From: Planctopirus ephydatiae
GTDB lineage: Bacteria > Planctomycetota > Planctomycetia > Planctomycetales > Planctomycetaceae
Direction of reading: 5' to 3'
NCBI RefSeq assembly: GCF_007752345.1
Contig: NZ_CP036299.1
Coordinates: 3,125,501-3,189,500 of the forward strand
Length of the DNA: 64,000 bases
Shown: in pieces, positions 11,916 to 25,919 of the stretch
Layout of the letters: each line of letters starts with the position of its first letter
Numbering within the stretch: the stretch's first letter is position 1
The notes under the pieces: generated by a model
What the model was told of the DNA's origin: nothing
The model's input: the letters and a program-made list of their open reading frames with translations, nothing else
The model's database searches: none
Translations under genes and position numbers: made by a program

Positions 11916-14900
11916 ATGGTACAGGTTCCCCCCATCGCCGTTATTGGTGTCTCATGTCGGATGCCCGGTGGCGACGGTATCGCAGAATACTGGAAGCTGA
12001 TCTCATCGGGATCGAGCGCCATTCGCGAGTTACCTGCTGATCGACTCGATAAGAGTCTCTATTTTGATACTGAGCAGGGGAAACCCGGACGTTGTTATAC
12101 CGATCTGGGAGGCGTCGTTACCGAGCGACCGGTCAATCGACAGATCTGTCCCATCTCGGATAAAGACCTGCAGACTTCTGATTCAGCACATCTGACACTT
12201 TGCGAAGTGGCTTCTTCGGCACTGAAGCATGCGGGGATGGATCCTACCAAGGTTCCTTACCGACGAACGGGTGTCTATGTCGGACATTCTGGTGGCAGCT
12301 GCCTGGGGGGAGATGCTGCTTTTGCCAGATATGCGGGGATTGCAGGAGAGATTCTCCGCAAGCAAGAGGAATTCAAAGGCTGCTCACCATCCGCCCGGGC
12401 CGAGATTTCTCGCCGTATGGTCGATCAACTGCGATCCCAGTTTCCCGATGAAGAATCGCTCAAGCCGATTAATTTTGCAGCGACAAATGCCGCCATGCTG
12501 ATTTCTCGCGTGCATGGTTTCGAAGGTCCATCGCTGGTAATCGATGCCGCCTGTGCTTCATCACTGATGGCGTTGAGCCAGGCTGCTTACGCCTTGGCGC
12601 GTGGCGAAATCGATATGGCTGTGGCCGGTGGGGCATCGTACAGCAAATGGTTTGGCCTCGTACTGTTCTCCATGGCCATGTCCATCAGTGGAACCGGATC
12701 AAGACCTTTCGATGCCGATGCCGATGGCCTCATCAGTTCAGATGGTTATGGGCTGGTTGTTCTCAAGACACTCCCGAAAGCTCTGGCCGATGGTGATCGA
12801 ATTCTGTCGGTCATTCGCGGGATTGGCGTCTCTTCTGATGGACGCGGTAAAAGCCTGTGGGCGCCGCGGCAGGAAGGGCAGATTCTTGCTGTCGAACGGG
12901 CTTACTCGAAGAACATCGACCCCGCGTCGCTGCAATACATCGAATGTCATGCCACATCCACTCAGGTCGGGGATGCCACTGAACTCAAATCCCTCGCACA
13001 AGTGTTGACCGGCAAAATCCCGGCTGGTCGAAAAATACCGATTGGCAGCGTGAAGGCCAATATTGGCCATACTCTCGAAGCCGCAGGGATTGCAGGGTTT
13101 ATCAAAACCGTCCTCGCCATGGAACATGGCGTGATCCCCCCCCAGATCAATTTCAAGACGCCTAATCCTGAAATTGAATGGAAGAACGCACCTTTTGAAG
13201 TTGCTACTAACGCCAGAGAGTGGGATCGTCCCGCAGGAGGCATGCCGCGACGAGCTGCCGTGAATTCGTTCGGTATCGGCGGTCTCAATGTCCACATGGT
13301 GATCGATGACGGGCTCTTGCCAGGTGAAAAATCCAAGACCTCAGTTTCCGTACCATCGGCACAGCCAAACAGCAACGTGGCTTCGGCTCCGGTACAGCAG
13401 CCGATGGCCGTCATTGGCATGGCATCCATCCTTCCCGGCGCTTTGACAAAAGCCGCCCTGTGGGAGGCTCTCATCGCCGGTAAAGACCCCAAGTGTGAGT
13501 TTCCCAGAGAAAACAGCACTTTGGCCTCTACGCTCCTCGCCGAAGAGCAGAAGTCACAAAAACCAGAACTGACATCGCGCGGAGGTTATGTCGCAGATTT
13601 CGTTTACGATTGGAAGCGGCATAAAGTTCCACCCAAACAGGTTGCGAATGCCAATCCACTGCAGTTCATGCTGCTCGATGCGGCTGACCAGGCTTTGACG
13701 GATGCTGGTTACGAAAAGAAACCCTTTGATCGTCATCGTTCCACAGTCATCGTCGGCACGATGTTCGGAGGTGACTTTGCAATTCAACTTCAGTTGGGTC
13801 TACGGTTACCGCATATTCAAAAGGTGTTGCGCGAACATCTGGAAGCCAACGGCACAAAACCAGACCAGATTGACGAAGCTCTGCTTCAGTACGAAAAGCA
13901 CTTCCTGAAAGTTTTGCCGGCATTACTGGATGAAACAGGCAGTTTCACCAGCAGTACACTGGCTTCAAGACTTTCAAAAACCTTCGATTTCCGGGGTGGT
14001 GCATTTGCGCTGGAGGCCGAAGAAGTTTCCGGGCTGGCAGCTGTCAACCTTGGGATCAATATGCTCGAAACCGGCACGACAGATCTTGTTCTGTGTGCTG
14101 CCGGCCATCAATCGATGAGTTACAACAGCTTCGAAAAACTCGTCGAGAAGGATCTTCTGAGCAAAGGGCAATCCCGCTCGGCCTTTGATGCCGATTTCGA
14201 TGGAATTCTGCCTGCAGAAGGTGTGGCCGTTCTTGTCCTGAAACGGCTGGAAGATGCCGAACGTGATGGCGACACAATCCGTGCCATCATTCGCGGCACA
14301 GGCCAGTGCAACCGTCGTAACGATGAAGCCGGTGCCATGCGCGAGTCGTTTAGCACAGCTCTCAAAGTTGCCAACACCTCACCGAAAGCTATTGGTGCGA
14401 TTGAAGTCTCAGGTGTCGATTGCAAAGCCCGCAATCTCGACCAACTCGAACTGGCCAGAGCCATCGATCAGGAAAGCGGCCAGCCGCAAGCCTTGATTGG
14501 TTCGCTGACTCCTCAAATCGGTTACCTGCGTGGTGCCTCGGGAGTGGCTTCGATTGTCAAATCGATTCTCGAATTGCAGAACGGTCAAATCGCGCCGCAG
14601 TTTGGTCTCAAAAAACTGGCTGCGGAAGTTCAGCCTGTCGCACATGCCATACCTCAAAATGTCATGCCGCTCTATGCGACTGCCCCAGGAGAGAAGGGGC
14701 AGATTGCGATCAGCAACAGCTCTCTCGATGGATCGGGTTTCAGCCTGATTCTCGAAAGTGCCCAGAAACTGCCACTCCGCCCGGCAGCCGCTCCTTCTGT
14801 TACTCTCAGCCAACCAGCCAGTACAAAACAGGCCCCGGCGACTCAGCCTTCCCGACTGACGACCTCTCAGTCAAAAAGAGCAAAGCTGGCTCTCGCCTTT

Positions 14901-17900
14901 CCAGGGCAGGGGTCTTACTACGCAGGGATGGGCGCCGACCTGGTTGCGAATTACCCCGAAGTCCGGCAGAAACTGGCGGAGTTCAACGAAGTCCTCAAAC
15001 TCGAAAACTGCCCGGATTTTGAAACGCTGTCTGCAGACCCGGGTAACGGTATTCTCAATGCTCAACTTTCGATGCTCGTTATCGATCTGCTCTATTACAC
15101 GGCCTACAAGACTGCGGGTATTCAGCCAGATTTTGTCTGTGGACACAGCTATGGCGAGTTTCCGGCATTGGTGGCCGCTGGGGCACTGACCTTCCGCAGT
15201 GCGGTGATTGCGACACGCGATCGATCTCATGTCGTGGAAGAGTTTGCCGGCAAACAGGGGACCTTACTCGCTGTCTCTTCGGATGCCTCCACGTTGCGCC
15301 ATCTGTTGACGAGGGCACCCGTCGAAGTCTTCATTGCCAATATGAATTCACCCGAACAAACCGTTCTGGGTGGCACGATTGACGACTTGAAGCAATTCGA
15401 GAAGATCCTGCGCGAACGCCGGATCGGGAGCCGACTTCTGAAAGTCCCTGCTGCCTATCACACACCTCTGCTCGAACCGGCACTCGTCACTTATCGTGAC
15501 TGCATTCGAGCTTTGCCAATTGCTGTACCGCAGATTCCTATCATCAGTGGCATCGGCAATCGAGAAGTCACCGATCCGGAAGAGATTCGCGAAAATCTCG
15601 TGATGCAACTGGTCAGCCCCATGGACTTTGTGGGGATGGTTCAACTCTTGGGGCAGCTTTCTGTCGGCATGGTGGTCGAAGTGGGGCCGCGAAAGGTGCT
15701 CACGCAACTGATCCAGAAAACGGCCACAGAAGGGCAGATGGAATGCCTTCCAATGGATCCTCGCGACAATTCGTCGCCGGATTGGCAATCCACGCTCAGA
15801 AGCAAATACGAAGGATCTGTCCGCAAATCTGCCCCACAGGCTGCTGCCACGCCCCAGAAAACGCCAGCTTCCCCAGTACCGGCACAGGCTCAAAAGCCAG
15901 TTTCTCAGCCGCAAAAACCCACAGTTCAGTCTGCTGCTGCAAACTCATCCGTTTCGAAACCTGGTCAGACGAAAACCAGCCAGATTCAACCCACTCCCGC
16001 AACGACCACCGTACCAACCACAGGTTCAAAAGTGACAGACCGTCCCCGTATCGTTCACTTCGACGCGACCGCGAAACGAAAAGAAGAAAATCGTCTGCGG
16101 GCAATCCTGCAACGTGCCGAGTCTGGTCGACCTGTAGGCACATCGGCCAGTCCGAAAACTACGCAAAACTCTCCTGCCATTTCTCACAGCGACCTTGCTG
16201 AGACAAATGGACATTCCGGGCACTTCGAGAAGAATGGACACGCTTCGGATGTCACGAGCAAAGCACCAGCTCTCAACTCCGCTCAGATGAAGGAAGAGAG
16301 CGTCCCTCCAGTCGTCGTGATCGAAGAGGTTCCAGCGGCTCCACGCAAGTTGCCTAATCGTGCAGAACTTGAAGCTTTCGTTGTCGAATACATCGTCGAT
16401 CAGACCGGCTACCCGCCGGAGATGGTTGAACTTGAAGCGGATCTTGAAGCGGACTTAGGCATCGACAGCATCAAGAAGGCTCAGATGCTCGGCGAATGCG
16501 CCCAGAAGTTCGAAATCCACTGGCTCGCCAATGAAGTCGCGGATCTTTCGCTCGATCAGTTCCCTAATCTCGCTTCGATCATCAAGTTCCTGACTGAAGA
16601 TGCCGCCAAGGCCACTTCATCACCTGCGGAAGAACAGCCTGTTGAACCCGCACCAGCTGCCGTATTACAAGCCGTAGCCATTGTGACTGAGACCAGCGAA
16701 GAGGCGGCTCCACGCAAGTTGCCTAATCGTGCGGAACTCGAAGCGTTCGTTGTCGAATACATCGTTGATCAGACTGGCTATCCGCCGGAAATGGTCGAAC
16801 TCGAAGCGGATCTCGAAGCCGACTTAGGCATCGACAGCATCAAGAAGGCCCAGATGCTCGGCGAATGCGCTCAGAAGTTCGAACTGCACTGGCTCGCGAA
16901 TGAAGTTGCCGATCTTTCGCTCGATCAGTTCCCCAATCTCGCTTCCATCATCAAGTTCCTCACCGAAGATGCCGACAAAGCCTCTGCAAGCGTGAACACC
17001 ATTGATGTGGCTGCGATTTCAAAATCGGTCGATATCGTCGCCTCACCAAGAGCTGCAACACACCCCGTCGAGATATTACCTGCCTTTGAGGCTAAGTCAG
17101 AAAATTGCGAACCGGCGGCTCCACGCAAGTTGCCTAATCGTGCAGAACTCGAAGCTTTCGTTGTCGAATACATCGTCGATCAGACCGGCTACCCGCCGGA
17201 GATGGTTGAACTTGAAGCGGATCTTGAAGCGGACTTAGGCATCGACAGCATCAAGAAGGCTCAGATGCTCGGCGAATGCGCCCAGAAGTTCGAAATCCAC
17301 TGGCTCGCCAATGAAGTCGCGGATCTTTCGCTCGATCAGTTCCCTAATCTCGCTTCGATCATCAAGTTCCTGACTGAAGATGCCGCCAAGGCCACTTCAT
17401 CACCTGCGGAAGAACAGCCTGTTGAACCCGCACCAGCTGCCGTATTACAAGCCGTAGCCATTGTGACTGAGACCAGCGAAGAGGCGGCTCCACGCAAGTT
17501 GCCTAATCGTGCGGAACTCGAAGCGTTCGTTGTCGAATACATCGTTGATCAGACTGGCTATCCGCCGGAAATGGTCGAACTCGAAGCGGATCTCGAAGCC
17601 GACTTAGGCATCGACAGCATCAAGAAGGCCCAGATGCTCGGCGAATGCGCTCAGAAGTTCGAACTGCACTGGCTCGCGAATGAAGTTGCCGATCTTTCGC
17701 TCGATCAGTTCCCCAATCTCGCTTCCATCATCAAGTTCCTCACCGAAGATGCCGACAAAGCCTCTTCGACATCACAATCAGAATCGCCTGCCGCCTCACT
17801 GGAGACCGAACTGGAACTTCAGGATTCCAGCACTGCCACGGCTACACTGACTGAACCTGCGAGCTCTTCCACACTTGTTGCGACTCAGGTGATCGAAGCC

Positions 17901-20900
17901 ATTCCAGCGGTCTCACTGGTCAGAGAATCTGTCATGGTTCTTCAAGGCAGCCCTTACGAAATGGGCTTCCAGCATGGCCAGAAGGAGAAAGCCGCCATCC
18001 ACGGCATTCTTGAACGCCAGATCACACGGTACGGTGCTCGTCTCGACAACATGCCCGAGTTGGACCAGGCGGTCAGCGATCCCGCACGATACTTCGGAGA
18101 AGACGAAGTGGCCGAGCTGAAAGGGATTGCCGACGGTGCCGAACTTCCTCTCGCTTTCCTGATTGGCCATAACCTGGGCCTCTGTGAAGACTACGTCCCG
18201 GGCTGTGCCCAGTTTGCTGTCTCTGCTCTGGCGAATGGTGGCAAGGGCATGATCCATGCCGCCAACGAAGATTCTTCGCTCGCACTCAGTTTGACGGATT
18301 GCCTCCGCCGCGTGGTGCAGTGTCGAATTCCTGCCCATGGTTATCGACACATCGTCTTCAGCGTGAGTGGACAGGTCAGCGGCATCAATGGCACCAATGA
18401 AAAGGGCCTGACTGTCACCAGCACTTTGCTGCTGGATCGAGCCCCTCGCGACATCACGGCACCTGGTGACATCCATCCGGTGCTCATCAAGAAAATCCTC
18501 GAAAAAGCTGCCACACCGGCCGAAGCGATCGAGATCCTCAAAAGCTCCAAGCGAAATGGAGCCTGGGGAGTCTGCATCAGCCATGCCGATACGGATTCAC
18601 TCTGCTATGTCGAGTATGACAGCGATCAGATTGAAGTCCGCAGCGGGATGACCCGTGTGATTGGAACAAATCACTCGTTGCTGCTCGGCGCCACACATCC
18701 GACACCTCCACACTCCATGCACCGTATGGATCGCCTGCAGGAACTCCTGGCCAAAGAAGAAGCTTTGGGGCTCGACTTCCCGGCTGCTGAAAAAACTCTT
18801 CGCGACCAGTTCGATGGTGGGCGTCAGCGAGTCACTGCTCATGCGACGATGAACACAATCTGCCGTGTCGATAACCAGATCAGCGTGGTTTTTGGCCCAG
18901 GACAGAAAACAATCCGTGTGACTCCCGGTTCATACCGCAAAGAATTTGCGCATGAATTCTCCACGCTTGATGTCGATGGCTTTTTCCGCGGTGCTGATGA
19001 ATTAGTCGTCAACGATGTCCCGACAAACTCAAATGTGGGCTCCAGCGTGAGTTCGGCACTAAATTCTAAACCAGCACAGCAAACCGATCTCCCTCGCTTG
19101 GCTGGTTTACCAGTTATCGATGAGCGTGTGATGCATCGGGTCATCCTGCGTCCACGTGTGGCACCGCTCTCACATGCAGCACAAAGGGCAAGCCTCGCTG
19201 GTAAAACAGTTGTCTATGGTTCCGGTGAAGTAGCGAGGGCCTTGATCTCCAAGTTAAAGACTACAGGTCTCGAAGTCGCTGCGATCCCTACCTGTTTTGA
19301 TGTGACAAAGCTGGAAGCTGAGTTCGAAAGTCTGGCATCTCTTAAATCTGCCAAGAATCTGATTCTGGTAGGGCCACGATCCTCAGAAGAAGTCAGTCAA
19401 GCAAGTGCATCTGCACGATTCCTGACAGCCTTCCGTCTTTGCCAGTTATGGACCCAAAGCGGCCAGGAAGTCTGCCCGCTCGCCGAGAGATCGTTAACCT
19501 TTGTCTCCTTCATGGGAGGGAATTTCGGTCTCGAAGGGAGCCCAGCCAATGCCGATGGTGGTGCCATGTCTGGTCTGGCCAAGGCCCTTCGCCGCGAACT
19601 GGCACCTCTGGCTATGCGCACTGTCGATTTTGCCAGTGACGATGTGACCGATCGAGTCGTGGATCAGTTGGCAAACGAACTCTCACAACCTTTCGAAACT
19701 TGCGAAGTTGCCTATTCGCGTGGTGAGCGTTTTGTCGTGGCAGCCCGCCCTGTGCCGGCGACTCCGGTACCACAAAATGGGCCAACACCAGGTTCAACTT
19801 GGATTATCTCCGGCGGTGCCCGTGGCGTCACAGCCGTTGTGGCCAGAGAGCTCGGAGTTCGTTATGGAGTCCACCTTCATCTGATTGGTTCTTCACCAAT
19901 TCCCGAACTGGATCCCTCGCTTCTGGAGGCTTCAGCCGAAGAGTTGAAAGCCTTGCGTCGGAAAATCATGTCCGAGGCGCGTGAACGTGGCGAAGTTCCT
20001 CTCGATGCCTGGAGTACTTTTGAACGCAGCCTCGAAGCCTGCCGCAACCTGCGGGACATGCGACAAGCCGGTGTCTCCGTCACTTATCATTGCTGCGATA
20101 TCAGTCAGGCTCATGCTGTTGAGAAAACGGTTTCAACAATTCGCACTTTCAATCATCCCATTGAAGGGGTCATCCACGGAGCCGGTGTCGAACATGCCTG
20201 CCGATTCGAACGTAAGCAGTTACCCAAGGTGCAAAAGACCTTCGATGTCAAAGTCGAAGGCGCACGTCACCTGGCTGCAGCACTCGAACATGATCCCGTG
20301 GCCTACTTCGTCGGATTCGGTTCGACCAGTGGTCGCTTCGGTGGTTTAGGTCAGGCCGATTACTCGGCGGCTTCCGACTCACTCGCCAAGTTCTGTAATG
20401 AACTGGGCCGCAAGAACCCCGACTGGCGAACCATTGCAGTTCACTGGCCGCCCTGGGGCGAAGTGGGCATGGCCGCCCGCCCTGAAAGTAAACTCGCTCT
20501 CGAAGCCGGCGGAATGGCATTTATGCCACCGCAAGAAGGCGTCGCCTTCCTGCTGGAAGAATTGGCTTCAACGTCACCAGAACCAGAAATCCTGATTGTC
20601 GATAAGCCAGATGGCCTAGATCTCGATCGTACGCTGCCCGATCTGGCGGAGTGGAAAGACTTCGCAGCCGCCCAGCAAGTGGTCGATGCCTCGCCTCTAC
20701 TGGATACCGTGATCGCCCTGACACCTGGGGAATATGTCGAAGTCGAAGTTCGATTGAACCCGGCACAAGATCCTTTCCTGTACGATCATCAACATCGTAA
20801 TGCCCCCATTCTTCCAATGACATTTGGTCTGGAGACTTTGGCTCAGGCATTCAGAGTTCTGCTTCCCGACACAAAGCAGGTGACTGTTCTCGATGGAGAA

Positions 20901-22487
20901 ATTGTCAATCCCATGCGGTTCTTTGCGGATCGTCAAGAACTCGCCATCGCTCGCATCCGTCGCTCGGGAGACAGCTTCGAAGGGGAACTCGTCACGAGGT
21001 TCTTCAATCGTAAGGGTGTCCTGCTCAAGCATGAACGAGTGCTCGTCAAAGCCCGGCTCAAACCCGGTGTCGATGCACCAGACGCAGCCAAACCTGTCAA
21101 ATCATCCATGCAGCTCAAGAAGGTTCAGTACGCAGAAACGTGGGATCAGGTCGCTGCATTGAATCTGGGGAGTGTTTTCACCGGCCCATCGATCCGAGGA
21201 TTGACGGAGTTCGCTTACGAAGGGAAGACCTTCGAAGGGATCATCGTTCCACCGCCGATCAGTGGATTTGCGGGAAATCGTGCAGCCACCGGCTGGATAT
21301 TGAATCCCGCCGTGCTTGATGCCTGCCTTATTGCGTGTGATCGCTGGGCAGCTCAGGCCGTCGAGCGGCAAAGCCTGCCCGTGAACATCGAAAAGGTCAG
21401 CCTTTATCGACCTGCCATCGATGGTGATCTCTGCCGGATTGACGGACAGGTGCTTGAAGTCACTGAGAAAAACCTGCGATTCAACTTTGCGCTTTGGAAC
21501 TCGAAAGCAGAGCTCATTCTGCAGGTGGAAGGATTCTGCACCACGGCAGTCATGGGTGGTTCGCAAACGGAAACTACGGCAGAAATCCCTGTCGAAATGG
21601 CTTCTCGAACGATTCCCGAAATAAAGTCTCTCAACCCGGCCGATCTGCATCTGCTGTTTCCCGTTGAAGCGGTGACAGCCAGTGCGGATCGCTGGGAAGC
21701 CGAAGTGCGGATCGAGCCTTTGACAGAGCCATTAATGACGGCTCACCGGTTTAACAATTCACCACTTCTCCCCGGAGCTGCGATGGTCGAGTTGTTTGCC
21801 GAAGCTTTGCAGCAGGTTCTGCCCGGCCCCGGTGTTGCTCGAATTCGCAACTTCTCCATTCAGCATTCGCTGCACCTGAAGGCAGCTCTCCCGCGTCGTG
21901 TGCAGGTCGTAGCTCTTAAAGAAGCCGACTGCTATCGCTGCCAGTTGATCGATCTCGATGGTGGCTCCATCACTCTGGCAACCGCTCTGATTGACCGAGT
22001 GGATGCAGCCAGCCTGCAACTGCCACAACTCGATCAACCCAAGGGAAGCTACAGTCCCATGAAGTATCCCGATATGGGGCCATTGATTCATGGTGCGCCA
22101 CTTCGCAGCCTGCAGGCGATGTGTTCTGGTCGAGATGATGCCTGGGCCGAAATCGTACCGACAGAAATGAGCAAATTGCTTGGCCCCAATTCGAAGTGCC
22201 AGCCAGTCATTCACCCCGCGGTCCTCGACGCCAGCTTCTATGCCTGTGGAATCCACGCCTGGCTCAACTTCTTCGGAAGAGTCGAGTTACCACTTGGTTT
22301 TGAAGAACTGCTGATTCTCCGTGATCAGCCATTAAGCAAAACCGACGAGTTGGTCACTCGTGTCCGATTCCGCGACAGTGACGACAAAGGTTCTTCGTAT
22401 GAGATCTCCGTTTTCGACAAACTCAAACAACCAGTCTACGTAGTGAGGAACTATCGCTGTGTTGCTAAAGGCAGCGTGACATTGTGA
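11916..22487 (+). CDS. Giant iterative type I polyketide/fatty-acid (Pfa-like) synthase with embedded C45 acyltransferase domain
   Basis: Megasynthase of 3,523 residues. Domain order: KS1 (about 5-460; triad Cys213, His345, His385 intact); KS2 (about 496-965; ALEAEEVSG replaces the Cys motif and both His motifs are lost, so chain-length-factor-like); AT (about 991-1290; GHSYG Ser1078, His1182); Ala/Pro/Gln-rich linker; four ACPs with GIDSI serines at 1518, 1641, 1778 and 1901; a C45/acyltransferase-like domain (about 2004-2355); pseudo-Rossmann and KR (about 2380-2900; SGGARGVTA, Ser2803, Tyr2816); DH1 (His2958) and DH2 (His3277), each with a following hot-dog half holding NPAVLDA or HPAVLDA. 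No ER or thioesterase was seen. The layout combines features of PfaA and PfaC of PUFA synthases in one chain. The stop overlaps the next start (TGATG), so coupling is likely. The start follows AAAGG. Confidence 0.93.
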   Translation: MVQVPPIAVIGVSCRMPGGDGIAEYWKLISSGSSAIRELPADRLDKSLYFDTEQGKPGRCYTDLGGVVTERPVNRQICPISDKDLQTSDSAHLTLCEVASSALKHAGMDPTKVPYRRTGVYVGHSGGSCLGGDAAFARYAGIAGEILRKQEEFKGCSPSARAEISRRMVDQLRSQFPDEESLKPINFAATNAAMLISRVHGFEGPSLVIDAACASSLMALSQAAYALARGEIDMAVAGGASYSKWFGLVLFSMAMSISGTGSRPFDADADGLISSDGYGLVVLKTLPKALADGDRILSVIRGIGVSSDGRGKSLWAPRQEGQILAVERAYSKNIDPASLQYIECHATSTQVGDATELKSLAQVLTGKIPAGRKIPIGSVKANIGHTLEAAGIAGFIKTVLAMEHGVIPPQINFKTPNPEIEWKNAPFEVATNAREWDRPAGGMPRRAAVNSFGIGGLNVHMVIDDGLLPGEKSKTSVSVPSAQPNSNVASAPVQQPMAVIGMASILPGALTKAALWEALIAGKDPKCEFPRENSTLASTLLAEEQKSQKPELTSRGGYVADFVYDWKRHKVPPKQVANANPLQFMLLDAADQALTDAGYEKKPFDRHRSTVIVGTMFGGDFAIQLQLGLRLPHIQKVLREHLEANGTKPDQIDEALLQYEKHFLKVLPALLDETGSFTSSTLASRLSKTFDFRGGAFALEAEEVSGLAAVNLGINMLETGTTDLVLCAAGHQSMSYNSFEKLVEKDLLSKGQSRSAFDADFDGILPAEGVAVLVLKRLEDAERDGDTIRAIIRGTGQCNRRNDEAGAMRESFSTALKVANTSPKAIGAIEVSGVDCKARNLDQLELARAIDQESGQPQALIGSLTPQIGYLRGASGVASIVKSILELQNGQIAPQFGLKKLAAEVQPVAHAIPQNVMPLYATAPGEKGQIAISNSSLDGSGFSLILESAQKLPLRPAAAPSVTLSQPASTKQAPATQPSRLTTSQSKRAKLALAFPGQGSYYAGMGADLVANYPEVRQKLAEFNEVLKLENCPDFETLSADPGNGILNAQLSMLVIDLLYYTAYKTAGIQPDFVCGHSYGEFPALVAAGALTFRSAVIATRDRSHVVEEFAGKQGTLLAVSSDASTLRHLLTRAPVEVFIANMNSPEQTVLGGTIDDLKQFEKILRERRIGSRLLKVPAAYHTPLLEPALVTYRDCIRALPIAVPQIPIISGIGNREVTDPEEIRENLVMQLVSPMDFVGMVQLLGQLSVGMVVEVGPRKVLTQLIQKTATEGQMECLPMDPRDNSSPDWQSTLRSKYEGSVRKSAPQAAATPQKTPASPVPAQAQKPVSQPQKPTVQSAAANSSVSKPGQTKTSQIQPTPATTTVPTTGSKVTDRPRIVHFDATAKRKEENRLRAILQRAESGRPVGTSASPKTTQNSPAISHSDLAETNGHSGHFEKNGHASDVTSKAPALNSAQMKEESVPPVVVIEEVPAAPRKLPNRAELEAFVVEYIVDQTGYPPEMVELEADLEADLGIDSIKKAQMLGECAQKFEIHWLANEVADLSLDQFPNLASIIKFLTEDAAKATSSPAEEQPVEPAPAAVLQAVAIVTETSEEAAPRKLPNRAELEAFVVEYIVDQTGYPPEMVELEADLEADLGIDSIKKAQMLGECAQKFELHWLANEVADLSLDQFPNLASIIKFLTEDADKASASVNTIDVAAISKSVDIVASPRAATHPVEILPAFEAKSENCEPAAPRKLPNRAELEAFVVEYIVDQTGYPPEMVELEADLEADLGIDSIKKAQMLGECAQKFEIHWLANEVADLSLDQFPNLASIIKFLTEDAAKATSSPAEEQPVEPAPAAVLQAVAIVTETSEEAAPRKLPNRAELEAFVVEYIVDQTGYPPEMVELEADLEADLGIDSIKKAQMLGECAQKFELHWLANEVADLSLDQFPNLASIIKFLTEDADKASSTSQSESPAASLETELELQDSSTATATLTEPASSSTLVATQVIEAIPAVSLVRESVMVLQGSPYEMGFQHGQKEKAAIHGILERQITRYGARLDNMPELDQAVSDPARYFGEDEVAELKGIADGAELPLAFLIGHNLGLCEDYVPGCAQFAVSALANGGKGMIHAANEDSSLALSLTDCLRRVVQCRIPAHGYRHIVFSVSGQVSGINGTNEKGLTVTSTLLLDRAPRDITAPGDIHPVLIKKILEKAATPAEAIEILKSSKRNGAWGVCISHADTDSLCYVEYDSDQIEVRSGMTRVIGTNHSLLLGATHPTPPHSMHRMDRLQELLAKEEALGLDFPAAEKTLRDQFDGGRQRVTAHATMNTICRVDNQISVVFGPGQKTIRVTPGSYRKEFAHEFSTLDVDGFFRGADELVVNDVPTNSNVGSSVSSALNSKPAQQTDLPRLAGLPVIDERVMHRVILRPRVAPLSHAAQRASLAGKTVVYGSGEVARALISKLKTTGLEVAAIPTCFDVTKLEAEFESLASLKSAKNLILVGPRSSEEVSQASASARFLTAFRLCQLWTQSGQEVCPLAERSLTFVSFMGGNFGLEGSPANADGGAMSGLAKALRRELAPLAMRTVDFASDDVTDRVVDQLANELSQPFETCEVAYSRGERFVVAARPVPATPVPQNGPTPGSTWIISGGARGVTAVVARELGVRYGVHLHLIGSSPIPELDPSLLEASAEELKALRRKIMSEARERGEVPLDAWSTFERSLEACRNLRDMRQAGVSVTYHCCDISQAHAVEKTVSTIRTFNHPIEGVIHGAGVEHACRFERKQLPKVQKTFDVKVEGARHLAAALEHDPVAYFVGFGSTSGRFGGLGQADYSAASDSLAKFCNELGRKNPDWRTIAVHWPPWGEVGMAARPESKLALEAGGMAFMPPQEGVAFLLEELASTSPEPEILIVDKPDGLDLDRTLPDLAEWKDFAAAQQVVDASPLLDTVIALTPGEYVEVEVRLNPAQDPFLYDHQHRNAPILPMTFGLETLAQAFRVLLPDTKQVTVLDGEIVNPMRFFADRQELAIARIRRSGDSFEGELVTRFFNRKGVLLKHERVLVKARLKPGVDAPDAAKPVKSSMQLKKVQYAETWDQVAALNLGSVFTGPSIRGLTEFAYEGKTFEGIIVPPPISGFAGNRAATGWILNPAVLDACLIACDRWAAQAVERQSLPVNIEKVSLYRPAIDGDLCRIDGQVLEVTEKNLRFNFALWNSKAELILQVEGFCTTAVMGGSQTETTAEIPVEMASRTIPEIKSLNPADLHLLFPVEAVTASADRWEAEVRIEPLTEPLMTAHRFNNSPLLPGAAMVELFAEALQQVLPGPGVARIRNFSIQHSLHLKAALPRRVQVVALKEADCYRCQLIDLDGGSITLATALIDRVDAASLQLPQLDQPKGSYSPMKYPDMGPLIHGAPLRSLQAMCSGRDDAWAEIVPTEMSKLLGPNSKCQPVIHPAVLDASFYACGIHAWLNFFGRVELPLGFEELLILRDQPLSKTDELVTRVRFRDSDDKGSSYEISVFDKLKQPVYVVRNYRCVAKGSVTL
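16335..17765 (+). repeat. Near-perfect tandem duplication of an ACP pair inside the synthase
   Basis: Bases 16335-16985 and 17115-17765 are aligned at an offset of 780. Over 651 bases I find a single difference (T at 16370, C at 17150). Each copy encodes two ACPs plus their linker; a unique linker of about 129 bases separates the copies. Within a copy the two ACPs are also close to each other at protein level but differ at many third positions. The pattern indicates an older duplication of one ACP and then a recent duplication, or gene conversion, of the pair. Confidence 0.97.
17925..18980 (+). other. Peptidase C45 / acyl-CoA:6-APA acyltransferase-like domain within the synthase
   Basis: Residues about 2004-2355 of the megasynthase look like an Ntn-hydrolase of the C45/AAT family rather than a polyketide synthase domain. 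The segment begins VLQGSPYEMGFQHGQ, a typical family opening. PGCAQFAVS holds the candidate nucleophile Cys2097, and HAANEDSS follows, in place of the family N-x-D. Further matches are SGINGTNEKGLTVTS and IGTNHSLLLG. In AAT the enzyme cleaves itself before this Cys and then transfers acyl groups to or from amines; in-chain placement here makes cleavage of the synthase, or amide-forming product release, possible. This is inference from motif order. Confidence 0.72.
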
Positions 22488-23293
22488 TGAGTAACGACGG
22501 AATGAGTGACAACGGGATCAGGGAGGGAATGACTTCTCAATTCGAGATTCATACCGCCACCAAGGCACAACTTCGAACCGGCCTGCTCTCAAGCGGTCTC
22601 GGGGAAAAGTTTGCCAACGGTGCGGAAATGTTCCTCGACCCTGCCCGCAAAGAGTCGTGGGAGCTCAGCCGATTTCTGATCGCGAGTCGAGTTTTTGCAC
22701 TGCTGAAAACTGATCGCTCTCAGGATTTCTTGTCTCCCGAGTTATCCGAGATCGAAGTCTGGACTCGCAATGACAAGGGCAGGGGGATTCCACCAGCAGT
22801 TTTCATCGAGAACCAGCAGATCCCCTGGACATTTTCGCTCTCACATGCAGGAGACAATTACGCACTCGCCATTTGCAGGCAGCCGCAATTTCGACCCGGA
22901 GTGGATCTGGTCAACACCAGCACTTTCACTCAGGCAGCCTTACAAATGTGGTTCACGCCGGAGGAAAGAAAAAATCTCGCAAATCGTGACGAGCGGGCCG
23001 CAGGAATCATCTGGGCACTCAAGGAAGCAGTCTACAAATCCATAAATCATGGAGAACCATTTCGTCCCAGACAGATTGAAATTCTTCCTGAGGGCAAAAA
23101 GTTGATTTGCCGTGTGAGAGGAATTCATGTGCATTTTGATGAAGCAGTCATCCGCTTCATCGAAAGAGATTGCCTGCTCGCAGCTGTCTTGAACAAGCGG
23201 AACTCTTTCCAGAACTCTGAAGAAGACCAATTCGATAACAAAACCAATTCTCACTCAATAAATGACGCATCTCACGAGCTGATCATGCATTGA
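22487..23293 (+). CDS. Sfp-type 4'-phosphopantetheinyl transferase
   Basis: Transfers phosphopantetheine from coenzyme A to the ACP serines, the step that makes the four ACPs of the upstream synthase functional. The family motifs are seen in order: SLSHAGDNYALAI, GVDLV (Mg-binding Asp) and WALKEAVYKSIN. The ATG at 22487 shares its first base with the synthase stop (TGATG), pointing to translational coupling; a GTG at 22484 is the longest alternative, and internal ATGs at 22502 and 22529 are possible. At about 268 residues the length fits the family. It is the counterpart of PfaE in PUFA synthase clusters. Confidence 0.92.
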   Translation: MSNDGMSDNGIREGMTSQFEIHTATKAQLRTGLLSSGLGEKFANGAEMFLDPARKESWELSRFLIASRVFALLKTDRSQDFLSPELSEIEVWTRNDKGRGIPPAVFIENQQIPWTFSLSHAGDNYALAICRQPQFRPGVDLVNTSTFTQAALQMWFTPEERKNLANRDERAAGIIWALKEAVYKSINHGEPFRPRQIEILPEGKKLICRVRGIHVHFDEAVIRFIERDCLLAAVLNKRNSFQNSEEDQFDNKTNSHSINDASHELIMH

Positions 23294-24117
23294 TGATCAG
23301 ACCTGAAAACCGAATTTTCGCTCCCGGAATTACAGAGTCAAAGGCCACTCGAATGATTGATTTAACCAATAAGATCGCCCTCGTCTCCGGGGCCTCACGC
23401 GGCATTGGTCGCGCGACAGCCCTGCAACTTGCCCGCGCCGGGGCCGACGTGGTCATCAACTATGTCCAGTCTCGCGACAGTGCTGACCGCGTGGCAGAAG
23501 AGATCGCCGCCATGGGCCGCCGCGTGGCCATTGTCCGTGCGGATGTCAGCGAGCAGAGCGACGTTCAGAGCATGATGGAATTTGTCGGCAATGAGTTTGG
23601 CAGGCTCGACATTCTCGTCAGCAACGCCGCATCGGGCGGTTTCCGCCCATTGCTGGCGGCCACTCCCAAGAATTTCGAAGCCGCGATGAATACCAATGTC
23701 CGCGCTCTTTTATTCCTCGTACAGGCCGCACATCCTTTGTTAGGGCAAAGCGTCGATCGAGCCAAGATTGTGGCCATTTCGAGCCATGGCTCACACATGG
23801 CACTCCCATGGTACGGTCTGATTGGTACCTCCAAGGCGGCACTGGAAAGTCTGATTCGCCACATGGCACTCGAGTTTGGCGATCAGGGAATGAACTTCAA
23901 CGTTGTCCAGGCGGGACTGGTTCCCACAGACTCCACCAAGATGATTCCTGGCTCCGAAGTCATGTTCAATGCGCGAAGCTCCAAGACCATGATGGGTGAT
24001 CGCCAGCTGGAACCCGAAGACGTTGCGAACGCAGTCCTTTACCTTTGCAGTCCACTGAGCGATCTGGTTCAAGGGCAAGTCTTGATCATCGACGGCGGGG
24101 CCGCCATTCACGTCTAA
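23293..24117 (+). CDS. FabL-like enoyl-ACP reductase (SDR family)
   Basis: Short-chain dehydrogenase/reductase with the nucleotide-binding GASRGIGRA motif and a C-terminal IIDGGAAIHV. The active-site arrangement is Tyr-x6-Lys (YGLIGTSK), typical of enoyl-ACP reductases such as FabI and FabL, and not the Tyr-x3-Lys of ketoreductases. SNAASGGFRP resembles the NNAASG segment of Bacillus FabL. It probably supplies the enoyl-reduction step that the synthase lacks in cis. The ATG at 23293 overlaps the previous stop (TGATG); an internal ATG at 23353 would give the usual short SDR N-terminus (MIDLTNKIALVSG). The alternative is a housekeeping reductase that sits here by chance. Confidence 0.82.
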   Translation: MIRPENRIFAPGITESKATRMIDLTNKIALVSGASRGIGRATALQLARAGADVVINYVQSRDSADRVAEEIAAMGRRVAIVRADVSEQSDVQSMMEFVGNEFGRLDILVSNAASGGFRPLLAATPKNFEAAMNTNVRALLFLVQAAHPLLGQSVDRAKIVAISSHGSHMALPWYGLIGTSKAALESLIRHMALEFGDQGMNFNVVQAGLVPTDSTKMIPGSEVMFNARSSKTMMGDRQLEPEDVANAVLYLCSPLSDLVQGQVLIIDGGAAIHV

Positions 24118-24209
24118 TGAGTTATTGCCTCTTCCAGGTGGTTTTCGAGTTGGCACTAACCATCTGATCACGGCCACTTTGCCAGAACTGTCCTACGGAA
24201 TCCTGCACG

Positions 24210-25919
24210 ATGCTCAATCTGATCTTCTCCATGATCGGCAGTTTTCTGGCACGGAAAGTCGGCCAGCAGCGAATGGCGTTTCATCAGGCCACAATGCGAC
24301 CCCGCGAATCGCAACAGGCCTTCCTAAAGGAATTGCTCGCTGCTCATGCCGATTCAGCCTTTGGCAAAGATCATTTCTTTCGAGAGATTCAAACTGCTGC
24401 TGACTTCCAGAAGAGAATGCCAATCGCTGAGTACGAGAACTTCGCTCCCTACATCGAACGTGTCAAAGCCGGTGAAACAACCGCGATGTTCTGCAACGAG
24501 CAGATCGTCATGTTCAATCTCACCAGTGGTACGAGCAGCACTCGAAAATTTATTCCCGTCACCAACCGTTACTTGAGCGACTATCGCCGTGGCTGGTCGA
24601 TGTGGGGCTTACAGACTTTTGAAAAGTACCCGCAACTCTTCCTGCAACCAAAAGTCAGCTTTGGCAGTGCCTCGAAGGAATCAGTCACGTCAGCGGGCAT
24701 TCCGTGTGGCAGTTTGAGTGGCCTGACTGTCAAAATGAATCCTGCTGTCGTGCGCAGCACCTATTGCCTCCCTGCTGATACGGCTGACCATGCCGACGCT
24801 TTCGCCAGATGTTACCTCAACTGGCGGATCGGCATCCAAAGAAACCTCGGCATGGGTGTCGCCCCCAATCCGGGTTTGCTTCTCCAATTCGCTCGCTTTG
24901 GTACCGAACACGCTGAACGTCTCATTCGCGAACTGCATGACGGCACTCATTCCTGCACAGCGGCTTTGCCGAGACATCTCCAAAATTGGCTCAAACGCCA
25001 GATCCGTCCGAATCGTAAACGCGCTCACGAGTTAGAACAGATTCATACTCGTCAGAATACTCTTTACCCCAAGGATGTCTGGCCTCAACTTCGATTGATT
25101 GCCTGTTGGCTGGGTGGGCCCACGAGGGCTTACATCTCGCAGATTCCCGAGTATTTTGGCGATGTCACATTGCGGGATATCGGCCTGATCTCCAGTGAAA
25201 GCCGCATCAGCCTTCCCAAAGAAGACAACACACCTGCGGGTATTCTCGATGTGACCAGTGCCTATTTTGAGTTCGTTCCCGTCGACGAAATGGATTCCAG
25301 CCATCCGATCGTTCTCGATGCCGCCGAACTCGAAACCGGCAAAGAGTATTACATCCTTTTAACAACGACCAGCGGTCTCTATCGATACAACATTCATGAT
25401 GTGGTGAGAGTCGTTGACTGGCATGAAAAAACACCCATGATTGAATTTCTGCATAAAGGAAGCAGAATTGCCAATCTCTTCGGTGAAAAACTCACGGAAA
25501 GCCAGATTGTCAAAGCGGTCACAACGTTCGTTCAATCAACAGCCACGCCTCTGGGCGATTTTTCACTGACCATGCCTCTGCCACATGAGCCGATGGCCTA
25601 TCGGTTTTACGCCGAAATGCGAGATTCACTCTCTTCCGATTCGATCGCCACTCTGGCTCGGCAACTGGACGAATCTCTGGGTGAGCAGAACTATCTGTAC
25701 CGCCGCAAAAGAGTCGAAGGCCTGCTCGATCCACTGGAATTGATTGTTATTCCGCAAGGTGCCTGGCGCGCCTGGGATCTCCGTCAACTCGCCCGCAATG
25801 GTGGCACCATGGATCAGTACAAGCATCCTTTTCTCATCACCAATCGCAGCCTGATCGACGATCTCCAGGTTGAACCTGTCAGTTCTCATCCAGCCACATC
25901 GATCAATGATCACCATTAG
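24210..25919 (+). CDS. GH3-family acyl-acid amido synthetase
   Basis: Adenylate-forming enzyme of the GH3 family (first known as auxin-responsive proteins in plants), which activates a carboxylic acid with ATP and couples it to an amine such as an amino acid. Visible features are the nucleotide motif FNLTSGTSSTRKFIPVT (about residues 106-122), GLISSESRI, and the YRYNIHDVVRV motif that matches the family YRxGD-like segment. The 569 residues fit the family. The gene lies 92 bases after the enoyl reductase in the same direction, so it may belong to the synthase operon. Substrates are unknown; an acyl product of the synthase as acid partner is inference. Confidence 0.85.
   Translation: MLNLIFSMIGSFLARKVGQQRMAFHQATMRPRESQQAFLKELLAAHADSAFGKDHFFREIQTAADFQKRMPIAEYENFAPYIERVKAGETTAMFCNEQIVMFNLTSGTSSTRKFIPVTNRYLSDYRRGWSMWGLQTFEKYPQLFLQPKVSFGSASKESVTSAGIPCGSLSGLTVKMNPAVVRSTYCLPADTADHADAFARCYLNWRIGIQRNLGMGVAPNPGLLLQFARFGTEHAERLIRELHDGTHSCTAALPRHLQNWLKRQIRPNRKRAHELEQIHTRQNTLYPKDVWPQLRLIACWLGGPTRAYISQIPEYFGDVTLRDIGLISSESRISLPKEDNTPAGILDVTSAYFEFVPVDEMDSSHPIVLDAAELETGKEYYILLTTTSGLYRYNIHDVVRVVDWHEKTPMIEFLHKGSRIANLFGEKLTESQIVKAVTTFVQSTATPLGDFSLTMPLPHEPMAYRFYAEMRDSLSSDSIATLARQLDESLGEQNYLYRRKRVEGLLDPLELIVIPQGAWRAWDLRQLARNGGTMDQYKHPFLITNRSLIDDLQVEPVSSHPATSINDHH

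Follow-up and report, generated by a model that had tools for sequence, protein, structure and literature searches.

The closest described systems to the locus reported here are the Pfa secondary-lipid synthases (PfaA-PfaD; PMC3098273). In the accessible part of their survey, Shulse and Allen (2011; PMC3098273) give Planctomyces limnophilus a type J locus, with pfaD and a KS-MAT-ACP3-KR protein (KS, ketosynthase; MAT, malonyl acyltransferase; ACP, acyl carrier protein; KR, ketoreductase). Planctomycetes also make acyl amides. OlsH of Singulisphaera, a GH3-like enzyme, makes N-acyl-ornithine from fatty acids, according to the accessible portion of PMC12493201, and the available text of PMC12479983 attributes the stieleriacines mainly to NasY1, an N-acyl amino acid synthase. 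Here we analyse a four-gene locus in a 64,000-nucleotide stretch of Planctopirus ephydatiae DNA (the window; NCBI RefSeq GCF_007752345.1, contig NZ_CP036299.1, positions 3,125,501 to 3,189,500). It encodes a one-chain synthase with an embedded C45 domain, a 4'-phosphopantetheinyl transferase (PPTase), a FabL-like enoyl reductase (ER) and a GH3 synthetase. The source genome (G000) is a single contig of 5,214,061 bases; other genomes and loci are cited by our own G and L numbers.

We read the locus, tentatively and with close to an even chance of being right, as a Pfa-like secondary-lipid synthase whose acyl chain ends as an amide, with C45 releasing the chain and GH3 amidating it. The computed observations behind this reading are the domain content, the intact active sites, the fold and nucleophile position of C45, the conserved gene order and the association of one GH3 clade (GH3-A) with C45. 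It is possible, short of an even chance, that this is a self-cutting fatty-acid/polyketide megasynthase whose new N-terminal Cys releases the chain onto an amine, that sister lineages lost this Cys and passed release to a thioester reductase, and that some genomes keep a separate Cys-bearing copy with a degenerate ACP-like head.

The C45 domain matches two family profiles (NF040521, 131.6 bits against a cut-off of 85; PF03417, 47.3 against 23.2). Its AlphaFold2 model, from a 24-row alignment, has a pLDDT of 87.9 and a pTM of 0.89. The top Foldseek match is the precursor of isopenicillin-N acyltransferase (IAT; TM 0.76, E 4e-19), and acid ceramidase and NAAA come next among other proteins. VIA-align gave Z scores of 35.2 for IAT (2x1c; root-mean-square deviation, rmsd, 2.6 over 310 residues), 32.2 for acid ceramidase (rmsd 3.0, 312 residues) and 31.2 for NAAA (rmsd 3.1, 310 residues). 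In these alignments many mature beta chains align from model residue 103, which is Cys2097, onward; the residues opposite it include residue 143 of 5u7z_B, 126 of 6dxx_B and 1 of 3pva_A. The nucleophile position of the N-terminal nucleophile (Ntn) fold is thus occupied by a Cys.

Propeptide-bearing enzymes of the C45 fold cut themselves just before the nucleophile Cys, and several structural matches carry the titles 'precursor', 'uncleaved' or 'self-activated'. As Cys2097 lies at the fold's N-terminal nucleophile position, we predict that this synthase cuts itself in two, probably between Gly2096 and Cys2097. The predicted pieces are one of 2,096 residues (225 kDa), holding KS, chain-length factor (CLF), acyltransferase (AT), four ACPs and the C45 propeptide, and one of 1,427 residues (155 kDa), holding the C45 core, KR and two dehydratase (DH) domains.

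Of 170 genomes from the taxonomic family, 22 have the C45 family (E <= 1e-60), as have 8 of 393 drawn across the phylum. A scan of GTDB contigs with two short peptide patterns, which misses diverged copies, found at least 27 C45 loci, all in planctomycetes save two labelled 'bacterium'. The nucleophile column reads Gly-Cys in 21 of the 26 readable rows, the window included, and Gly-Gly in five (it is unreadable in L052 and L076). A first set of 15 rows held seven Cys, four Gly and four with neither, and six further rows held three Cys (L212, L214, L215) and three Gly (L213, L139, L142); some genomes occur in more than one set. In a 30-row tree, which does not include L212-L215, the Gly-Gly copies form one clade (6 rows, support 100/99) and the copies with a PGC motif another (13 rows, 87/90, with an open fork). 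The Gly-changed in-chain clade comprises L064, L066, L067, L068, L069 and the in-chain C45 of G021; judging by sequence, its members may be pseudoenzymes or uncleavable forms.

Four C45 proteins stand alone, carry the Cys (Table 1) and form one clade (95/95) within the PGC clade. Their N-termini are ACP-like in three of four cases (BLAST E 3e-7 to 3e-10, 28-30% identity to the window ACP; E 0.19 in L063), and none of the four retains the attachment serine, with DG or DP for DS. The Pfam PP-binding cut-off is not reached either, so this part is a degenerate ACP at best, and perhaps a docking pseudo-ACP. Eight genomes of the family have Gly-type in-chain C45 (G021, G150, G130, G015, G019, G023, G119, G185); three also have a stand-alone Cys copy and five have none, which suggests at most occasional replacement.

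These relatives bear on whether C45 is catalytic at all. It could be structural or proofreading, with release by GH3 or by an unlinked enzyme, which we regard as distinctly improbable. Throughout the supported Gly-Gly clade the synthases keep a C45 that has lost its Cys, no more than three of the eight Gly-type genomes have a stand-alone Cys copy, and the Cys-less copies retain the invariant Asp125, Asn258 and His259 (model numbering), which suggests some role that does not need the nucleophile. The existence of stand-alone Cys-bearing proteins argues for a catalytic C45, as does the way in which the Cys follows the neighbouring genes. It is kept at all seven readable GH3-A loci (the window, G001, L050, L051, L053, L054, L057). 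A thioester reductase lies near the synthase at 11 C45-bearing loci, of which four have the Cys (L212, L060, L065, L073) and seven do not (L039, L066, L068, L042, L043, L044, L049, the last three being close kin). This difference, 7/7 against 4/11, has a p of 0.013, not corrected for kinship. The reductase was confirmed by Pfam NAD_binding_4 in L212, L065 and L044 and by BLAST, at 36-46% identity, in the others.

GH3-A and the thioester reductase never both lie beside the synthase at any locus. Neither is present at L056, L059, L061, L062, L064, L067, L069-L072, L074, L075, L139, L142 or L213-L215, several of which are cut by contig ends, and the C45-less relatives L046 and L047 have weak reductase matches (28-30%). 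A sulfotransferase adjoins the ER of the C45-bearing synthases at L215:5485-6612 and L214:1806-2933 (Pfam check in L215), and we count it as another finishing gene of such synthases. Compared across genomes, the sequences suggest one synthase core whose partner genes for release or finishing vary. The thioester-reductase swap was not part of the initial annotation of this DNA.

Two further arrangements were seen among the relatives. At L044:12659-19638, L049 and L043 a synthase with degenerate C45 lies near a PPTase, a Rieske oxygenase and the thioester reductase, with an ER in L044 and L049. These three loci also have a class III aminotransferase and an AMP ligase (Pfam check in L044), and the set resembles a pathway to long-chain amines or amides. 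In Stieleria sedimenti and its kin (L070, L071, L072, L075) the synthase is split into a KS2-ACP protein and a KS-CLF-AT-C45-KR-DH protein. The split forms retain the C45 Cys, and those genomes have no GH3 match.

GH3 proteins are a family of ATP-dependent acyl-amide synthetases that use free acids. The window GH3 has the N, M and C domains and the motifs TSGTSS at 105, ISSES at 327 and GLYRYNIHDV at 389, which we take to be nucleotide motifs, and its best PDB matches are plant GH3 structures (1.4e-34). A second, 36-row GH3 tree was made of 26 rows of an earlier tree and ten hand-picked from the GH3 search loci; the partial row G002/G061 was excluded for length, and two long G082 rows were excluded from this second tree. 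Clade A has 10 rows with support 100/100, separate from clade B, a split on which the earlier 28-row tree agrees. With the line for GH3-A set at 490 bits to the window GH3, it is present in 11 of the 170 family genomes. Ten of these 11 carry the C45 family, as do 12 of the 159 remaining genomes (p 1.6e-9 by Fisher's test, with no correction for phylogeny). GH3-A adjoins the synthase in eight of the 11 (G000, G001, G002, G003, G027, G028, G087, G142); in G087 it lies about 1.1 kb behind the synthase with neither PPTase nor ER in between. Among the 22 C45 genomes, GH3-A accompanies 10 of the 17 that have a PGC motif in either an in-chain or a stand-alone C45, and none of the five with Gly-Gly only, where G002, its Cys stretch cut off, is counted as PGC by 97% identity.

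Several observations weigh against a pathway that ends in an amide. The 490-bit line was chosen post hoc, with the locus's own GH3 as query, and GH3 as such is not specific, since clade B is common across the family: GH3 at E<=1e-100 occurs in 119 of the 170 genomes, and the source genome has a clade B copy outside the window (G000:C1:2124294-2125922). The gene context of clade B pointed to no function. G024 carries GH3-A with no C45 and no synthase match. Seven of the 17 PGC-type genomes do without GH3-A: G013, G118, G130 and G150, which are drafts 65-99% complete; G148, which is complete and has a thioester reductase next to its synthase; and G116 (96%) and G206 (82%), each with a sulfotransferase in that place. 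Two amide catalysts in series would also be redundant unless C45 hydrolyses, and both product and activity are predicted from sequence and a structural model.

It is unlikely, although a serious contender, that the product is instead a secondary fatty acid of the Pfa type, free or esterified, with C45 a mere thioesterase and the GH3 of another pathway, co-transcribed by chance. PfaA (TIGR02813) is the best whole-protein NCBIfam model for the synthase, at 796.7 bits against a cut-off of 1010.1, and the seven PGC-type genomes just listed manage without GH3-A. As GH3 enzymes use free acids, C45 may also merely hydrolyse the thioester. The co-occurrence of GH3-A with C45 and its place beside the synthase in eight genomes argue against chance co-transcription, and relatives of the C45 fold form acyl amides or act on them. 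The initial annotation had named both C45 and GH3 as candidate amide-forming catalysts; both are present, and C45 may be a hydrolase instead. It had also proposed an N-acyl amine or amino acid as product. The GH3 family, the C45 fold and the GH3-A/C45 association make the amide chemistry plausible, whereas the amide itself and its amine are predictions.

The amine may be hinted at by gene order. In G021 (L040:3539-11820) and G064 (L138:165-4887; the same as G151), argB-argD-argF is followed directly by GH3-A. C45 is a separate protein in both genomes; in G021 its gene lies 1.7 kb upstream of argB, beyond an ORF (open reading frame) of opposite orientation. This row, read from sequence, hints at an amine from the ornithine or arginine pathway. 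The product could then be N-acyl-ornithine (lyso-ornithine lipid), the locus being a second OlsH-like route that has its own acyl chain, and the precedent of OlsH as a planctomycete GH3 that acylates ornithine, as the accessible text of PMC12493201 has it, fits. We consider this rather unlikely. The OlsH equivalog model NF052613 has a cut-off of 620 bits; the window GH3 scores 114.9 and four other GH3-A members 94-145, so we rejected all five as OlsH orthologues. No alpha/beta-hydrolase family of the OlsI type was found among the 12 window proteins scanned. Both arg-GH3 genomes belong to one genus, so the clue may be a single event, and in G000 the GH3 has no ArgF next to it. The low scores and the limits of the arg clue count against the amide reading as well.

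In the amide pathway that we favour, the PPTase would prime the four ACPs, and the KS1-CLF pair would elongate the chain with the malonyl units that AT loads. Ketoreduction and dehydration would take place in cis, through KR and both DH domains, and the FabL-like enzyme would reduce enoyl groups in trans, giving a long chain, wholly or partly saturated. Once folded, the C45 domain just behind the ACPs would split the polypeptide at the Gly2096-Cys2097 bond; the Cys, now N-terminal, would take the chain off an ACP, as IAT takes it from acyl-CoA. The acyl-enzyme might be resolved by water, giving a free acid, or by an amine. GH3-A would then activate a carboxylate with ATP and join it to an amino acid, which may be ornithine or a compound near it in the arginine pathway. 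Alternatively, C45 might form an N-acyl amino acid and GH3 couple a second amine to its carboxylate. Self-cleavage, release by C45, amide formation, the identity of the amine, and the saturation and length of the chain are all steps that we infer. Comparison with relatives suggests that the product is a fatty amide, perhaps of a new type.

The locus itself is well supported. The ORF search recovered all four co-directional frames in the row in which the initial annotation had placed them (Table 1), and the PPTase start overlaps the synthase stop by 4 bases. The frame of the reductase, a short-chain dehydrogenase/reductase (SDR), runs from TTG 23290 to 24117 (275 residues); the 254-residue form of the relatives corresponds to the ATG at 23353. 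The comparison of gene order across planctomycete genomes that the initial annotation had proposed was run, and the order synthase-PPT-ER-GH3 is repeated in G001, G003 and G027. Identity per domain or gene is 87-100% in G001, of the same genus, and runs from 35% (PPTase) to 88% (ER) in G003 and G027. As the order is kept in relatives, the locus is not a chance reading. Promoter and terminator scans of the locus gave values inside the spread of shuffled sequences.

Table 1. Features of the synthase locus (positions in the window) and stand-alone C45 proteins of related genomes (positions in their own loci)
Feature	Position	Strand	Details
Synthase	11916..22487	+	3,523 aa, 380 kDa; KS-CLF-AT-ACP4-C45-KR-DH-DH; ORF, Pfam, NCBIfam, relatives
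KS1	11916..13325	+	aa 1-470; Cys in DAACASS; PF00109/PF02801
KS2, chain-length-factor-like	13398..14795	+	aa 495-960; Cys replaced by Glu in EAEEVSG
AT	14868..15785	+	aa 985-1290; GHSYG; PF00698, 101.3 bits
Four tandem ACPs	16332..17780	+	each LGIDS; PF00550, four stretches
C45 in-chain domain (Ntn hydrolase/isopenicillin-N-acyltransferase-like)	17898..18950	+	aa 1995-2345; NF040521
Cys2097 codon, predicted N-terminal nucleophile	18204..18206	+	predicted cut after Gly2096; structure alignment
KR and structural subdomain	19053..20645	+	aa 2380-2910; active Tyr in ADYSA; PF08659, 100.4 bits; subdomain boundary estimated
DH1	20673..21590	+	aa 2920-3225; catalytic His; PF21089/PF14765, two stretches
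DH2	21633..22484	+	aa 3240-3523; catalytic His; Pfam
4'-Phosphopantetheinyl transferase	22484..23293	+	269 aa; PF01648
FabL-like trans enoyl reductase (SDR)	23353..24117	+	254 aa; FabL 3oic closest in PDB
GH3 acyl-amide synthetase, clade A	24210..25919	+	569 aa; PF03321/PF23571/PF23572; trees
Stand-alone C45 with Cys (G021)	L040:10327-11820
Stand-alone C45 with Cys (G064)	L055:2042-3613
Stand-alone C45 with Cys (G067)	L058:9563-11101
Stand-alone C45 with Cys (G072)	L063:9521-11089

Pfam and NCBIfam back every domain of the one-chain machine for condensation, loading, carriage, ketoreduction and dehydration that the initial annotation had described, and the window synthase retains the AT Ser, the KR Tyr and both DH His residues. 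Its condensing part needs qualifying: two KS domains are present and the KS1 active site is intact, whereas KS2 lacks the Cys and is CLF-like. Across a 21-row alignment, a few rows of which are the same genome fetched twice, the KS1 Cys is kept in 18 rows, the other three being matches to a KS2-type domain, and the KS2 position is non-Cys in 20, with L074 as the exception. A KS1 with Cys beside a KS2 without it indicates a KS-CLF pair. This role for KS2 and the self-cutting of the chain, both of which we infer, go beyond the initial annotation. AT scores 169.5 bits on the fabD model, under its cut-off of 260.9. The ACPs are 300-nt repeats; copies 1 and 3 share 99% identity, and the values for copies 2 and 4 are 86 and 88%. 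A two-ACP block looks, from these repeats, to have been duplicated, and the near identity of copies 1 and 3 suggests that ACP number probably changed recently.

The PPTase, the FabL-type enoyl reductase and the GH3 of the initial annotation are likewise supported. The PPTase scores 45.1 bits on PF01648 (cut-off 25) and 23.2 on TIGR00556 (under 45.35), and a PPT-like ORF adjoins many related synthases. The closest PDB structure to the SDR is 3oic, B. subtilis FabL (2.6e-51; runner-up 5.7e-37). Its motif YGLIGTSK is of the Tyr-x6-Lys (YxxxxxxK) type and is shared by 13 of 14 relatives, the exception, L053, being just 41% identical. The motif, with FabL as nearest solved relative, marks the SDR as FabL-like in function.

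An upstream PutA gene and a downstream gene like that of dihydrodipicolinate synthase are retained in G001. They were not seen in L050 and L051 (in L050, downstream side only), and we therefore left both out of the system. The source genome has a second synthase-like match at G000:C1:1512964-1514304, in an open frame of 2,297 residues, which is perhaps the type J pfaA in the accessible part of Shulse and Allen's survey.

Like the initial annotation, we could assign no known product to the locus. We rejected the type J pfa locus of P. limnophilus for its other domain content, as given in the accessible part of PMC3098273, and the stieleriacine locus because that product comes mainly from NasY1 in the available text of PMC12479983. 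The accessible text of a 2023 essential-gene paper on P. limnophila mentions five unnamed ketoacyl synthases that form one paralogue group and are all essential, a passage that looks unrelated. The system is not described in the accessible parts of that paper, of a 2024 paper on type III polyketide synthases, of a 2025 review of planctomycete metabolites or of a 2026 paper on polyunsaturated fatty acid hybrids. Among the titles and abstract openings listed by searches of the open-licence literature, none concerned a C45/Ntn domain in such a synthase, which is weak evidence, as a description may exist. As far as these sources reach, the system is a variant of the secondary-lipid synthases, with C45 and a GH3 partner, for which no description was found. 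If our reading is right, an Ntn cysteine acyltransferase inside the chain would be a new mode of chain release for an iterative synthase, and this self-cleaving megasynthase would come with natural Cys-less comparators in other genomes. The locus would then also point to a possibly new class of planctomycete lipid amides.

The stieleriacine pathway also yields planctomycete N-acyl amino acids, but NasY1 is another type of enzyme, going by the accessible text of PMC12479983, and Stieleria sedimenti has a C45-bearing relative of the synthase with no GH3 match. OlsH shares the GH3 family and its planctomycete origin; in the available part of PMC12493201 it is linked to OlsG/OlsI, whereas the window GH3 is linked to a synthase. 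FabL enoyl-ACP reductase is the nearest solved structure to the SDR and has the same Tyr-x6-Lys motif, but the SDR is under the cut-off of the FabL equivalog NF005975 (263.5 bits against 328). The Pfa synthases share KS, CLF, AT, tandem ACPs, KR, DH, PPTase and, we suppose, the iterative logic, and, as in PfaA, Pfam places KS, AT, tandem ACPs and KR together on a single chain. The window system differs in its single chain, in the C45 behind the ACPs, in its GH3 partner and in having a FabL-type SDR for PfaD, no PfaD-type reductase being found among the 12 window proteins scanned. IAT, acid ceramidase and NAAA share with C45 the fold, the nucleophile position and a proenzyme model matched above its cut-off. 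They are free enzymes, whereas the C45 of the window is embedded in a megasynthase beside the ACPs.

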